Positions 1 to 10,439 of a DNA stretch of 13,360 bases are shown in pieces (within the stretch, counting starts at the first letter, position 1; each line of letters opens with the position of its first letter). This DNA is from Streptococcaceae bacterium (lineage in GTDB: Bacteria; Bacillota; Bacilli; Lactobacillales; Streptococcaceae): assembly GCA_031259195.1 (NCBI GenBank), contig JAIRLR010000091.1, positions 1 to 13,360 on the forward strand, given 5' to 3'. The notes beneath the pieces are model-generated. The model had not been told where the DNA came from. It did not search any database and saw nothing but the letters and a program-made list of their open reading frames with translations. Both the position numbers and the translations under genes were made by a program.

Positions 1-2
1 TT

Positions 3-38
3 CTCTTAATCCATCATTACCTAAAAGCTTATGCTTAG
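3..38 (+). CDS. Possible C-terminal tail of an upstream gene (cdsA?)
   Basis: Frame 3 reads LLIHHYLKAYA and then a TAG stop at 36-38. In Bacilli the gene just upstream of dxr is usually cdsA (phosphatidate cytidylyltransferase), whose C-terminus is hydrophobic and often ends in a short His-rich tail, so this could be its end. Eleven residues are too few for a firm call. Frame 2 is also open from the edge to a TGA at 71-73 and cannot be excluded. The proposal rests on gene order rather than on sequence recognition. Confidence 0.2.
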   Translation, partial: LLIHHYLKAYA

Positions 39-60
39 TCTCAAATTGTGAAAAAATAGC

Positions 61-114
61 TCAAAAGACCTGACAAGTTTACCAAATCGTTTCAAGCTTT
101 GCTGGATTTACAAA
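61..114 (+). repeat. Decayed ~55-bp hairpin module (third copy)
   Basis: This stretch matches the two modules at 1350-1411 and 1478-1541 in the same order of parts: TCAAAA, a degenerate ACCTG-A-CAAGT mini-palindrome (69-79), then TTTCAAGCTTTGCT around a former stem loop. The loop has one change (GCTGG instead of GCTTG) and only a short AAATC/GATTT stem remains, so it looks like an old copy. It ends right at the dxr ribosome binding site (AAAGGA, 114-119). Confidence 0.6.
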
Positions 115-126
115 AGGAAAATAAAA

Positions 127-1290
127 ATGAAAAAAAAAATTGGTCTATTGGGAGCAACGGGTTCAATCGGAACAAGCGCTTTAGATGTTTTACGTAATAA
201 TCCGGAAAGTTTTGAATTGGTAGCTTTTTCTTTTTATTCAAATATCGAACTGGCAAAAAAGATCATTGAAGAGTTTCAGCCTGTAGTTGTTGGTGTTCGC
301 ACTAAGGCGATGGTGCAGGAGCTTTCTTTACTATATCCGCAAATTAAGTTCCAAGCAGGAATGGAAGGGTTGGTGGCCGTTGCAACAGCAAAAGCGGCGG
401 ATATTGTTTTAACAGCGCTAACAGGGTCTGTTGGTTTATTACCAACGATGGCCGCCATTGAAAGCGGAAAAGATATTGCTTTAGCGAATAAAGAAACTTT
501 GGTGATGGCTGGTCAGTGGGTTATGCAAGCGGCAAAAGAAAAAGGCGTTAAAATTCTGCCGGTGGACAGTGAGCATTCAGCGATTTTTCAGGTGTTGCAA
601 AGCCAAGATAATAAAAATGTGAAAGAGTTGATTATCACCGCTTCTGGTGGGAGTTTCCGTGATTTAACGCGGGAAAAATTAAAGCAGGTCACTTTAGAAG
701 ATGCATTAAAACATCCCAATTGGTCCATGGGCAAAAAGATTACCATTGACTCTTCGACGATGGTGAATAAAGGGCTAGAAGTGATTGAGGCGCATTGGCT
801 ATTTGATGCATCTTATGATAAAATTAAAGTTGTTTTACACCGTGAAAGTACTGTTCATTCAATGATTAAGTTGGTTGATGGAGCGTACTTTGCCCAACTT
901 GGTCCAAGGGATATGCGTGAGCCCATTCAGTACGCATTGACTTTTCCAAAGCGTACGCTTTTAAAAAATGAAAAAGACTTTGATATAGCTGATGTTTCTA
1001 CGCTTCATTTTGATAAGTTAGATGAGGAACGCTTTCCAATGTTGACTTTAGCATTTGTTGTTGGCGGCAAAGGTGGAAGTTTTCCAACGGTGTTTAATGC
1101 TGCTAATGAAGTGGCGGTAAATGCCTTTATTGATGGGAAAATAAAATATTTAGAAATTGAAGAGTTGATTAAAAGAGCTGTTAGTAAACACCAAGAAGAG
1201 ATTAACTTAACACTTGAGATGGTGATTGAAATCGATAAAAAAACGCGGCAGAAAGTTTATAAGTGGATTGAAGAACTAAAAAGTATTTAG
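127..1290 (+). CDS. dxr: 1-deoxy-D-xylulose 5-phosphate reductoisomerase
   Basis: Dxr (IspC) converts DXP to 2-C-methyl-D-erythritol 4-phosphate with NADPH and a divalent metal, the first committed step of the MEP isoprenoid pathway, in the cytosol. At 387 aa it has the usual family length. Visible features are the NADPH-binding loop GATGSIG (residues 9-15), the metal-ligand motif PVDSEHSAIFQ with D147 and E149, the substrate loop ASGGSFR (Ser where many homologues have Pro), HPNWSMGKKITIDSSTMVNKGLE with N214, K215 and E218 (matching the E. coli Asn/Lys/Glu set), and the C-terminal NAANEVAV segment. The start is set by AAAGGA at 114-119. Its TAG stop is formed by the last two bases of the TTA border repeat and the first base of the inserted repeat that follows. 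Gene order matches the Bacilli cdsA-dxr-rseP-proS cluster. Confidence 0.97.
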   Translation: MKKKIGLLGATGSIGTSALDVLRNNPESFELVAFSFYSNIELAKKIIEEFQPVVVGVRTKAMVQELSLLYPQIKFQAGMEGLVAVATAKAADIVLTALTGSVGLLPTMAAIESGKDIALANKETLVMAGQWVMQAAKEKGVKILPVDSEHSAIFQVLQSQDNKNVKELIITASGGSFRDLTREKLKQVTLEDALKHPNWSMGKKITIDSSTMVNKGLEVIEAHWLFDASYDKIKVVLHRESTVHSMIKLVDGAYFAQLGPRDMREPIQYALTFPKRTLLKNEKDFDIADVSTLHFDKLDEERFPMLTLAFVVGGKGGSFPTVFNAANEVAVNAFIDGKIKYLEIEELIKRAVSKHQEEINLTLEMVIEIDKKTRQKVYKWIEELKSI

Positions 1291-1349
1291 AACCTGTTAA
1301 CGATCTCCGTAATTGTGACTTTTCTGGTAATTTTTTGCCTTTCTTCGTC

Positions 1350-1411
1350 AAAAAACCTGTCGGGTTCTTTACGATTTGTTCAAGCTTTGCTTGATTACAA
1401 ATCGTTAGAAC
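1350..1411 (+). repeat. Hairpin module A inside the 280-bp MITE copy
   Basis: This block is absent from the 160-bp copy at 6432-6591. It consists of A-run, ACCTG-T-CGGGT mini-palindrome (1355-1365), then a long hairpin. The hairpin stem is GTTCT (1364-1368) plus ACGATTTGT (1371-1379), pairing with ACAAATCGT (1397-1405) plus AGAAC (1407-1411). The inner stem-loop is CAAGC-TTT-GCTTG (1381-1393). Confidence 0.75.
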
Positions 1412-1477
1412 GAAAGCCTCGATTTAGCACCGCTAAACCTACGTTTTTTTTCCTAGAAATGCACAAAAATTTCTCAA

Positions 1478-1541
1478 AAAAACCTGGCAGGTTTACAAGT
1501 TGTTTCAAGCTTTGCTTGATTACAACTTGTATAACGGGATC
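1478..1541 (+). repeat. Hairpin module B inside the 280-bp MITE copy
   Basis: This is the second block absent from the 160-bp copy. It has the same design as module A: AACCTG-G-CAGGTT (1481-1493), then stem ACAAGTTGT (1495-1503) pairing with ACAACTTGT (1522-1530) around the identical inner hairpin CAAGC-TTT-GCTTG (1506-1518). The outer stem sequence differs from module A, yet both are perfectly self-complementary. Confidence 0.75.
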
Positions 1542-1589
1542 CATCAATAGAGAGATCGTTAACAGGCTCTTAGTTATGAGGGAAAAATT

Positions 1590-2867: not shown

Positions 2868-2901
2868 TTGTATAGAGTTGTTATATAAATTCACTTCGCT
2901 A

Positions 2902-2922
2902 GAGATCGTTAACAGGTTCTTA
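2902..2922 (+). repeat. Solo end of the MITE family
   Basis: GAGATCGTTAACAGGTTC (2902-2919) followed by TTA is the right-hand terminal repeat of the family with no matching left end nearby. It sits between rseP and the proS ribosome binding site. It is best read as a deletion remnant. The 34 bases before it (2868-2901) hold nothing I recognise. Confidence 0.65.
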
Positions 2923-4722: not shown

Positions 4723-6432
4723 ATGAGCTATCAAGCGTTATATCGAACTTTTCGTTCACAGCGTTTTGATGAGATTGTTGGGCAAAGGGCTGTTTCAGTA
4801 ACTTTAAAACAGGCCATTTTGCAAGAGAAGGTCAGTCATGCGTATTTATTTACGGGTCCTCGTGGAACGGGAAAAACAAGTACTGCTCGCATTTTTGCTA
4901 AAGCTTTAAATTGTCATCACTTGCAGAATGGTGAGCCATGCAATCAGTGCGAAATGTGCACAGCAATTACTGAAGGTCGCATAGAAGATGTTTTGGAGAT
5001 CGATGCAGCTAGCAATAATGGCGTAGATGAAATTCGTAATCTTCGTGATACAGTGAGATATCCACCAGTATTGGCAGATTATAAAGTTTATATTATTGAT
5101 GAAGTTCACATGCTTTCAACGAGCGCTTTTAACGCGCTTTTAAAGACGCTGGAAGAACCGCCTGCTAAGGTTATTTTTATTTTAGCGACAACGCAAGTGC
5201 ATAAAGTATTGCCGACAATTGTTTCTAGAACACAACGTTTTGACTTTAAGCGAATTGGCATAGAGGATATTGTTCAGCACTTAGAAGATATTTTGGCAAA
5301 GCTTAATATTAAGTTTGAAAAAGAAGCGCTTTTCATTATTGCTCGCGTAGCTGAAGGTAGTATGCGAGATGCATTGTCAATTTTAGATCAAGCTGTCTCT
5401 TTTATCGAAGACACTTTAACAAGTGAAGCTGCCATGATGATAACTGGCAGTTTAACCAAAGATATGATGGATAAGTATATGTTGGCGGTTTATGAAAAAA
5501 ATGTTGAAGTTGCTCTTAAGATTTTAAGCAAAATCTTTTCGCAGGGAAAAGAAGCCCGACGTTTTTTAGAAGATATGATTTTATACAATCGAGATTTACT
5601 GATGCACAAGCATGCTGCGCAGTTCGTTCTTGAGGCACGAGGAGTGCTAACAGACACGTTTAAAAAGTTGGCTACAGAACTTTCTTCTAAAGATATCTAT
5701 GCCTATATCAAGCTTTTGAATGAAGCACAGCAAGAGATTCGTTTAAGCAATCTGACAAGCACATATTTAGAAATTGTAACTGTCAAATTAGCAACTTTTT
5801 CGCAAGATTCATCGTCTGTTCAACTTGAAAAAGATAATAAAGACTTCGACTCTTTACGTGAAGAGCTGAGTCAACTGCGAAGTATAGTTGAAAATTTACA
5901 AAAAGGTCAAACTGATTTTTCTAAGGAACGTTTAACAACTAGTTCAAGTACAGATAAAGCTGATTATAAAAATCCAACTGAGCAGATTCATCAAGTGTTG
6001 TTATCAGCTACCAAAGCGCATTTAACAGCTTTAAAAGAGGTATGGCCGGACTTTTTGGCCTCTTTGGATGCAAGATGCAAAGCCATGATGAAGGCCAGCA
6101 AGCCAGTAGCTGCTAGTGATACACAGATGGTTGTTGCCTATGATTATGATATTTTGGCGATGACAGCTAATCAGGATGAAGCGTTAAAACAAATTGTTGG
6201 TGAGAGTTTAGACAAAATGATTGGCTTTGCGCCAAATTTGATCATTGTTACAAGCAGTGAATGGCCAAAACTACGACGTACATTTATTGAAAAAAATCGG
6301 GAAAAATTGCAGTTAGATAAGACTGATGTGACGCAAAAAACAGCTTCCGAAGATCATAAAAATGCCGACATTGTTGAAAAAGCGATTGATTTATTTGGTA
6401 AAGATATGGTGAAAGTAATAAGAACCTGTTAG
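4723..6432 (+). CDS. dnaX: DNA polymerase III subunits gamma/tau (clamp loader ATPase)
   Basis: DnaX is the ATPase of the clamp loader that places the beta clamp on primed DNA and ties the replicase together. It is 569 aa. Seen: MSYQALYRTFRSQRFDEIVGQ at the N-terminus, Walker A GPRGTGKTS (45-53), zinc cysteines C64, C73, C76 and C79, Walker B DEVH (126-129), and the R169 arginine finger in SRT, where most homologues have SRC. AAA+ domains I-III span about 1-365; the rest is a low-complexity tau-like tail. SD-like GCGAGG lies just before the ATG. The last codons (AGA ACC TGT TAG, giving RTC) come from the repeat inserted at its 3' end. Its usual Bacilli partners, a YbaB-type gene and recR, do not follow; a repeat and ftsK do. 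I saw no convincing programmed frameshift signal. Confidence 0.97.
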   Translation: MSYQALYRTFRSQRFDEIVGQRAVSVTLKQAILQEKVSHAYLFTGPRGTGKTSTARIFAKALNCHHLQNGEPCNQCEMCTAITEGRIEDVLEIDAASNNGVDEIRNLRDTVRYPPVLADYKVYIIDEVHMLSTSAFNALLKTLEEPPAKVIFILATTQVHKVLPTIVSRTQRFDFKRIGIEDIVQHLEDILAKLNIKFEKEALFIIARVAEGSMRDALSILDQAVSFIEDTLTSEAAMMITGSLTKDMMDKYMLAVYEKNVEVALKILSKIFSQGKEARRFLEDMILYNRDLLMHKHAAQFVLEARGVLTDTFKKLATELSSKDIYAYIKLLNEAQQEIRLSNLTSTYLEIVTVKLATFSQDSSSVQLEKDNKDFDSLREELSQLRSIVENLQKGQTDFSKERLTTSSSTDKADYKNPTEQIHQVLLSATKAHLTALKEVWPDFLASLDARCKAMMKASKPVAASDTQMVVAYDYDILAMTANQDEALKQIVGESLDKMIGFAPNLIIVTSSEWPKLRRTFIEKNREKLQLDKTDVTQKTASEDHKNADIVEKAIDLFGKDMVKVIRTC

Positions 6433-6605
6433 AGCCTGTTAACGATCTCTCTATCGATGAATTTTTTGAGAAATTTTTACGCGTTTCTAGGAAAAAAACG
6501 CAGGTTTAGCGGTGCTAAATCGAGGCTTTTTAACGAAGAAAAGCAAAAAATTACCAAAAAAGGCGCGATTACGGAGATCGTTAACAGGCTCTTAGCAGGT
6601 TCTTA
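6419..6605 (+). repeat. 24-bp palindrome interrupted by a MITE copy
   Basis: The left arm TAAGAACCTG (6419-6428) and right arm GCAGGTTCTTA (6595-6605) flank the 160-bp element and its TTA repeats. Removing the element and one TTA joins the arms into a sequence one base different from the intact 24-bp palindrome at 10416-10439. The left arm supplies the codons for the last residues of DnaX. Confidence 0.75.
6429..6594 (+). mobile_element. MITE-like element, compact 160-bp copy
   Basis: The body is 6432-6591, bordered by TTA at 6429-6431 and 6592-6594. Its ends GAGCCTGTTAACGATCTC (6432-6449) and GAGATCGTTAACAGGCTC (6574-6591) are perfect 18-bp inverted repeats. It is in the opposite orientation to the 280-bp copy at 1290-1569 and lacks the two hairpin modules. 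Internal hairpins are GCGTTT/AAACGC (beginning about 6480) and TTTAGC-GGT-GCTAAA (6505-6519). It has no coding capacity. It fills most of the dnaX-ftsK gap. Confidence 0.82.
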
Positions 6606-6624
6606 AAGAAAGAAGGATTAGAGT

Positions 6625-9021: not shown

Positions 9022-9054
9022 TAATTAGACCTCTTGCGAAACTAAATTCATGAA

Positions 9055-9117
9055 AATTGCGAACTGCCTTAACGATTGGCAAGCGTTAGCTTGACAGAGT
9101 TTAGGCAGTTCGCAATT
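9055..9117. repeat. Long perfect hairpin between ftsK and purM
   Basis: AATTGCGAACTGCCT (9055-9069) is the exact reverse complement of AGGCAGTTCGCAATT (9103-9117). The 33-base loop holds a second hairpin CAAGC-GTTA-GCTTG (9080-9093). The loop shares TAACGATT and the CAAGC/GCTTG design with the hairpin modules in the dxr-rseP gap, so it may be another, more diverged member. It lies 33 bases after the ftsK stop and could act as a transcription barrier, but no U-run follows on either strand, so I do not call it a classic terminator. Confidence 0.7.
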
Positions 9118-9125
9118 GGAGACAA

Positions 9126-9139
9126 GTTAACAGGCTTTA
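9126..9139 (+). repeat. Degenerate MITE end
   Basis: GTTAACAGGCT followed by TTA resembles the right terminal repeat GTTAACAGGCTC-TTA with one base lost. No full left end is seen, although TTAGACCT at about 9025 is a distant match. It lies between the long hairpin and the purM promoter region. Confidence 0.4.
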
Positions 9140-10415: not shown

Positions 10416-10439
10416 TAAGAACCTGTTAACAGGTTCTTA
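10416..10439. repeat. Intact 24-bp perfect palindrome at the purF 3' end
   Basis: TAAGAACCTGTT joined to its own reverse complement AACAGGTTCTTA. It looks like two MITE ends (variant with AACC) fused at their shared GTTAAC with no interior. Read on the minus strand it encodes the last residues of PurF and its TAA stop. A near-identical copy was the insertion target at the end of dnaX. As RNA it would fold into a tight hairpin in both transcripts and might help end the convergent purM and purF messages; no strong U-run follows. Confidence 0.8.

Follow-up and report, generated by a model that had tools for sequence, protein, structure and literature searches.

IS-like ends and target duplications mark BOX elements, which contain a variable number of foldable boxB modules (PMC3049150). 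In the parts of that report drawn on here, one boxB module of Streptococcus suis occurs in two different frames; BOX, RUP and SPRITE elements insert into one another; and a BOX repeat supplies gene stop codons in pneumococcus (PMC3049150). Such modular repeats have long been known, and how single modules enter and leave them is unsettled. The GC clusters of yeast mitochondria are palindromic units of ~40 nt that spread, merge and shuffle, their loops changing more than their stems, by a mechanism described as unsettled in the sections used (PMC4478555). The palindromic elements of Rickettsia (~150 bp) lie inside protein genes, sometimes in frame, and the portion of the source relied on places them in unrelated metabolic genes (PMC10969869).

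Here, we describe hairpin modules carried by a MITE in a 13,360-nt stretch of a Streptococcaceae genome (contig JAIRLR010000091.1; the window) and in related genomes. By analogy with the published description, the element is closely akin to the BOX repeats of streptococci and, for a modular repeat of this sort, unusually rich. BOX elements (S. pneumoniae, S. suis), the nearest precedent and from the same family, share with it modules set in IS-like ends and the supply of stop codons, and their logic as given in the excerpted text (PMC3049150) means that the initial annotation went too far in proposing an undescribed element type. Whereas the BOX elements so described have one tandem core, the element reported here has at least five separate module sites in one palindromic MITE, and its module H0 is also found in an IS5 transposase gene and in other frames, with nested hairpins; the likeness is judged by description, not by BOX sequence (PMC3049150). 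A MITE with five module sites and a related module in its partner’s transposase gene was not found in the literature searched, as far as the consulted parts of the sources go.

In bacteria, the modules appear to parallel the hairpins that shuffle in mitochondrial genomes. GC clusters differ, in the passages available, in being GC-rich organelle DNA with an AG target duplication and in not being tied to a MITE or IS frame (PMC4478555). Like the elements of Rickettsia as excerpted, H0 can be read through in frame, in one case here: the transposase reading frame of one related genome (G013:C70; L273, 249 to 788) is open through its H0 insert. The transposase is the one gene known to bear a module here, and this comparison is confined to that gene. 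The palindromes of the REP/RAYT system are likewise short hairpins at high copy number; the modules reported here are larger and MITE-borne, no Y1 partner was found for them, and neither the GTAG nor the CGTC tag (PMC3733652) was noticed by eye. Five related genomes contain sites both filled and empty, as well as hybrids and nested or snap-back forms, and module gain, loss and pairing can thus be tested by comparison.

Results and Discussion

Two copies of one MITE (MITE-1) lie in the window: a 280-bp element at 1290 to 1569 (forward strand), between dxr and rseP, with terminal repeats GAACCTGTTAAC and GTTAACAGGCTC and a TTA target-site duplication to its left (1287 to 1289) and right (1570 to 1572), and a module-free 160-bp element at 6432 to 6591 (reverse strand), a long imperfect hairpin by itself (−38.5 kcal/mol folded as DNA; z −7.8 for 6431 to 6592). 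The dxr stop codon TAG (1288 to 1290) consists of target-duplication bases plus the first MITE base. Two extra blocks of about 60 bp had been noticed in the longer copy, and alignment to the 160-bp form recovers both, as +61 nt past base 62 (module M1, site B; 1352 to 1412, forward strand) and +58 nt past base 129 (module M2, site D; 1481 to 1538, forward strand). M1 is made up of an A-run, a near mini-palindrome, a stem (GTTCT..ACGATTTGT / ACAAATCGT..AGAAC) and the inner hairpin CAAGC-TTT-GCTTG; M2 has ACCTGGCAGGT, the stem ACAAGTTGT/ACAACTTGT and the same inner hairpin. The plan attributed to both blocks thus stands for the outer stems and inner hairpin, but the mini-palindrome is exact in M2 (ACCTG-G-CAGGT) and imperfect in the M1 of the window (ACCTG-T-CGGGT).

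The decayed right half of a MITE-1 relative (1 to 114, forward strand) comprises an H3-like trace at ~3 to 39 (by eye) and an M2-like remnant at 61 to 114; the latter, first taken for a third copy, is a relative (74% identity over 57 nt) but does not fold (z +0.99). The hairpin at 9055 to 9117 (forward strand), first noted for its shared loop design, is an H0-type module, now an almost perfect snap-back hairpin with a strong fold (−36.4, z −8.7); the MITE right end comes next, its terminal repeat GTTAACAGGCTT lying 3′ of the hairpin at 9126 to 9137 (forward strand). A right-end remnant of a MITE-1 relative is found between rseP and proS (2890 to 2920, forward strand), and a solo terminal-repeat palindrome (GAACCTGTTAACAGGTTC, 10419 to 10436) adjoins the 3′ end of purF. 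At the dxr-rseP junction, G013 has no insert, so that the simplest reading is insertion of the window MITE after the split from G013. The more distant genome G021 (L392) has there a gap of ~300 bp with a decayed TIR-like end and, by eye, an H0-like stretch ~45 bp past dxr; this insert, at another point than the window MITE, is probably an independent event. None of the inspected junctions showed orthologous MITEs with differing modules.

The window element is a non-autonomous IS5-family MITE with short terminal inverted repeats (GARCCTGTTAAC/GTTAACAGGYTC). In 83 of 126 distinct TIR pairs, a set that includes ten far-apart pairs enclosing genes, the two 3-bp flanks are identical and almost always TAA or TTA, and the same TAA/TTA triplet stands on both sides of 93 of 120 elements that had been preselected for TAA/TTA on both sides. 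The lengths of these 120 elements (120 to 413 bp, from a script that admitted 100 to 460 bp only) fall below the MITE limit of ~500 bp, and the ORFs overlapping 1290 to 1569 are of 92 and 111 aa only. A 3′-proximal anchor of the IS5-type transposase gene gave nine distinct matches: five have GTTAACAGGYTC 85 to 86 bp downstream, then TTA/TAA, one has a variant repeat (GTAGACAGGCTC, 72 bp) and three have no repeat; the left terminal repeat was seen for one transposase copy (L254). Two transposase proteins match NF033580 (IS5 family), at 116 bits (cut-off, 110) and, just below, 107 bits. No intact full-length IS was found, and the six inspected of ten pairs of ends more than 600 bp apart enclose other genes or short ORFs only and no transposase. 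The IS5 transposase probably powers the host MITE.

The window genome (1.03 Mb, 186 contigs, 84% complete) has 141 places that match the module core TTCAAGCTTTGCTTGATT with at most 3 mismatches (100 of them among the matches listed) versus 2 for the reversed control, and the core is therefore not a product of chance. Queries of 284 bp and 162 bp gave at least 68 and at least 63 matches in this genome, with 40 of 243 and 40 of 206 first-look candidates scored, respectively. Across 196 Streptococcaceae genomes drawn evenly from a larger group, the core (at most 2 mismatches) was found 127 times in the window genome (G000), 59 times in G013, 37 in G028, 11 in G003 and once in G021; genomes of other genera had 0 to 7 each (reversed control, 0 to 1), every one with 1 or 2 mismatches among the matches listed. 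The MITE body matched in 7 of 58 genomes, namely the five of the genus (own included) and two with weak short matches, and the other Streptococcaceae genera sampled gave no match beyond one such weak short one. The exact 22-base core was found in the Lactobacillales MAGs Cd354_bin51 (G028) and Gsp477_bin117 (G013), in the Streptococcaceae MAG Nc350_bin42 (G003) and on one contig of an Elusimicrobiota MAG (L190; JAIRLV010000131.1), which carries two module cores, H0, a typical element and a Mur ligase C-terminal domain and is probably a misbinned Lactobacillales contig. We take MAGs with such isolate codes to be from termite guts. The 5′ motif of H0 occurred 74 times in the window genome and once each in four of the other 394 genomes of an order-wide sample of 395, which left out the other four of the genus (G003, G013, G021, G028), and had 4 exact matches in viral contigs; these stray matches all lack the module 3′ half and are therefore ascribed to chance. 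The MITE had no match in plasmid and phage records, and the module core was absent from viral contigs. The module-bearing MITE is found here in one genus of Streptococcaceae.

The 120 TIR-bounded elements step in length by ~60 bp (160/220/280/340/400), a ladder that tracks module count; 34 of them, mostly of 160 bp, have no recognised module (one of 324 bp carries another insert), and the longest (400 to 413 bp) hold three or four modules by the patterns used. Loci were fetched around matches, and module class frequencies differ in meaning from genome-wide frequencies. There are five discrete module sites: A (H0, 65 to 66 bp), B0 and C (H3, a double hairpin of ~57 bp), B (M1) and D (M2). The cleanest pair, at site D in one genome (Gsp477_bin117), consists of a filled 220-bp element (L160) and an empty 160-bp element (L233) that differ by one substitution in 160 backbone positions and by exactly one 60-bp module; the junction CAAAAA|ATCC shows no duplication and, by eye, no microhomology. 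Site B is filled in the 280-bp copy of the window and empty in L009, at a backbone divergence of 2.5%. Another module subtype, with the core CCAAGC-TTT-GCTTGG and the stem AGCTTA/TAAGCT (which varies in some copies), was found paired with different sequence at L010, L037, L113, L168 and L294.

On a backbone tree of 94 copies, from which elements covering fewer than 145 of the 160 base columns were left out (which removes deletion hybrids), module presence needs at fewest 7 (A), 17 (B), 16 (C) and 26 (D) state changes, against means of 9.6, 20.9, 27.0 and 31.6 and minima of 8, 16, 21 and 23 in 200 shuffles. For sites B and D, the best of these shuffles clusters module presence at least as well as the tree does; presence there is hardly clustered, which fits frequent gain and loss and also fits recombination between copies, which inflates the counts.

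Whole H0 was found in at least five sequence contexts: at site A of MITE-1; inverted, near site D, in three loci of G021 (L292, L239, L386); in a chimeric MITE starting with GACCTCTTGCGAAACT; in the unrelated G021 repeat MITE-2; and within the IS5 transposase gene. It also occurs in tandem, and its 5′ part adjoins a GCAGC..GCTGC hairpin in G003 (L299, L302, L344). Between two fixed codons of the transposase gene there are 9 bp in two empty copies (L254 in G028, L251 in G013), 73 to 75 bp in five filled copies (G000, G003, G013) and 147 bp in one copy with two H0 in tandem (L095), a net insert of 64 to 66 bp per H0 with no target duplication. This site decides polarity for H0; one ancient insertion may account for every filled copy. 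The modules prefer A-runs in most contexts, not all. The description of the modules as mobile-looking is borne out by their presence and absence at precise sites and by related H0 in other contexts, the transposase gene included. MITE-2 likewise has copies with and without H0; it was set aside as a test of polarity, since a direct repeat flanks the filled state and deletion between the AAGCTTTT repeats could explain the empty ones. In G021, a small hairpin (~28 to 35 bp around GCGATTTTTAATCGC) is nested in H0 loops and in MITE terminal repeats (L292, L303, L387), once as two tandem units, and one MITE-2 copy (L372; G021:C35) contains four H0 in tandem, three with the nested small hairpin.

H0 resembles the reverse complement of M1, with a mean local score of 23.6 over 45 M1 copies versus 15.3 (sd 1.9, max 22.6) in 300 shuffles, a test that used the distinct sequences of classified M1 copies. 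M1 and M2 are clearly related (0 of 5,000 shuffles as good, with an M1 variant picked for its CCTGCCTAA start). M2 and H0 showed no significant similarity (19.7 versus 15.7, sd 2.3; 1,694 of 5,000 shuffles as good), and the link between them therefore runs through M2 with M1 and M1 with H0. On these comparisons, M1 and M2 belong to a family of hairpin modules to which H0 is related. A consensus structure for H0 was weak (RNAalifold, −0.4), leaned on G-T pairs and was set aside.

With moderate confidence, we read the palindromic body of the MITE as a landing platform for modules of ~57 to 66 bp. On rare occasions a module would insert into an A/T-rich stretch without duplicating its target; the modules would then be amplified as passengers during transposition of the host MITE, and would be reshuffled among MITE copies by homologous recombination; stem pairing would be kept largely by hairpin-promoted template-switch copying from arm to arm, with or without added structure selection. 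With one assembly per species, the comparison caught no insertion between strains, so that polarity is inferred at sites B, C and D, and several of the MAGs are fragmented, often exactly at modules or repeats (contigs ending in a module). More doubtful is a broader possibility, namely that the ~60-bp hairpins are a mobile DNA class of their own, independent of the MITE and without terminal repeats or target duplication, which would enter A/T-rich stretches and the loops of hairpins, each other’s included, as folded single strands (or hairpin DNA), with MITEs and the transposase gene as vehicles and the small hairpins of G021 as a second family.

It is unlikely that the long form is instead ancestral, with all hairpins present at the start, the short forms being deletions and the modules not mobile units. 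Deletions do happen: 33 modules join an M1 (or M1-like) left half to an M2 right half, and no reciprocal was found among the classified modules (the classification covered 268 core-like matches with full context, 9 unclassified on one side and 117 on both, the latter mostly chance matches in genes, with a few real variants among them). This one-sidedness is what core-to-core deletion predicts, and many one-module elements of 155 to 160 bp are accordingly deletion products. Sites A and D occupy near mirror positions of the MITE palindrome, as if one symmetric ancestor had both, and the many state changes on the backbone tree also fit module loss. Against an ancestral long form, H0 interrupts a conserved transposase gene of which empty copies exist and is found in other frames, pairing between the two arms of the empty form runs in register through sites A and D (i+j 162 to 164), and what separates L160 from L233 is exactly one module, beside which no microhomology was seen by eye. 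A deletion origin of the short form, raised from the start as the finding that would tell against mobile modules, thus fits the hybrids of ~155 to 160 bp, but the evidence goes against it for the module-free 160-bp form, and for that form we keep to the landing platform.

Both modules fold as RNA better than any of 200 shuffles (M1, minimum free energy −22.8, z −6.2; M2, −22.4, z −4.9). Stem cells are paired in 96.5% (47 M1) and 97.6% (53 M2) of cases versus 22 to 62% in slid controls, figures favoured by structures derived from the same alignments. Both sides have changed at six pairs (25/67 and 44/48 in M1; 20/66, 24/63, 25/62 and 29/58 in M2); each of these shows 8 to 15 state changes when the stem columns are left out of tree building. 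The outer stems had been seen to differ and yet to be perfectly paired in the two window modules; across copies, the stems covary, with 96 to 98% of cells paired. Such pairing could reflect selection on a folded RNA, transcribed from the MITE or module (e.g., a transcript processing site, terminator or regulator), and M2 alone leans to G-T among half-changed pairs (G-T 23, A-C 7). M1, in contrast, has no such lean (G-T 15, A-C 16), and with totals of 38 and 23 the two classes are not clearly different, so there is no clear sign favouring RNA over DNA. The 33 hybrids persist despite imperfect outer stems and weaker folds (mean −15.9 versus −23.4 and −20.5), and Rfam covariance models at the gathering cut-off gave no match in the window. 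Selection on RNA is, on this evidence, distinctly improbable.

Template switching is well established as a source of mutations at quasi-palindromes, according to the portions of two reports used here (PMC7202029, PMC8604942). Snap-back forms, elements whose one half is an inverted copy of the other with the inner hairpin at the turn, were found at L045, L072, L004 and, in the window, at 9055 to 9137. A template-switch-like process thus acts here, and it offers a selection-free way to paired stems. As the cause of the paired stems, we infer chiefly template switching and rank selection on the fold behind it. The suggestion that the folded form matters is weakened accordingly: the stems do covary, but the G-T and A-C counts, the imperfect stems of the hybrids and the snap-back route all temper it.

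Transposition of single strands by a Y1 enzyme (IS200/IS605 or RAYT), the type of partner that the initial annotation had suggested, is very unlikely to have moved the modules, for although the lack of target duplication, the hairpin-bearing units and their mostly fixed orientation relative to the A-run would suit it, Y1_Tnp had no match in two module carriers (G003, 100% complete, and G021, 88% complete) and one match each in G028, G000 and G013 (covering part of the domain only in the last two), no module-like ends were seen by eye around these genes, and the MITE is of the IS5 family. A Y1/RAYT partner was rejected on the same grounds, and no module-moving enzyme was found. The one complete Y1_Tnp gene (L258; G028:C87) lies on a contig that looks foreign to G028 by eye, and contamination is possible.

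Several arrangements of ends were noted in the window. The solo palindrome at 10419 to 10436 is the expected leftover of an element that collapsed from one of its two GTTAAC motifs to the other, and a similar solo palindrome was found at L033. At 6420 to 6606, an older solo terminal-repeat palindrome appears to have been split at its central TTA by insertion of the 160-bp MITE (AAGAACCTGTTA, MITE, TTAGCAGGTTCTTAA). The end of a second IS/MITE family, TAGACCTCTTGCGAAACT (9027 to 9045), precedes the H0 module and the MITE-1 right end, and this chimera of TAGACCTCTTGCGAAACT, H0 and MITE-1 right end is common to other copies in the genome.
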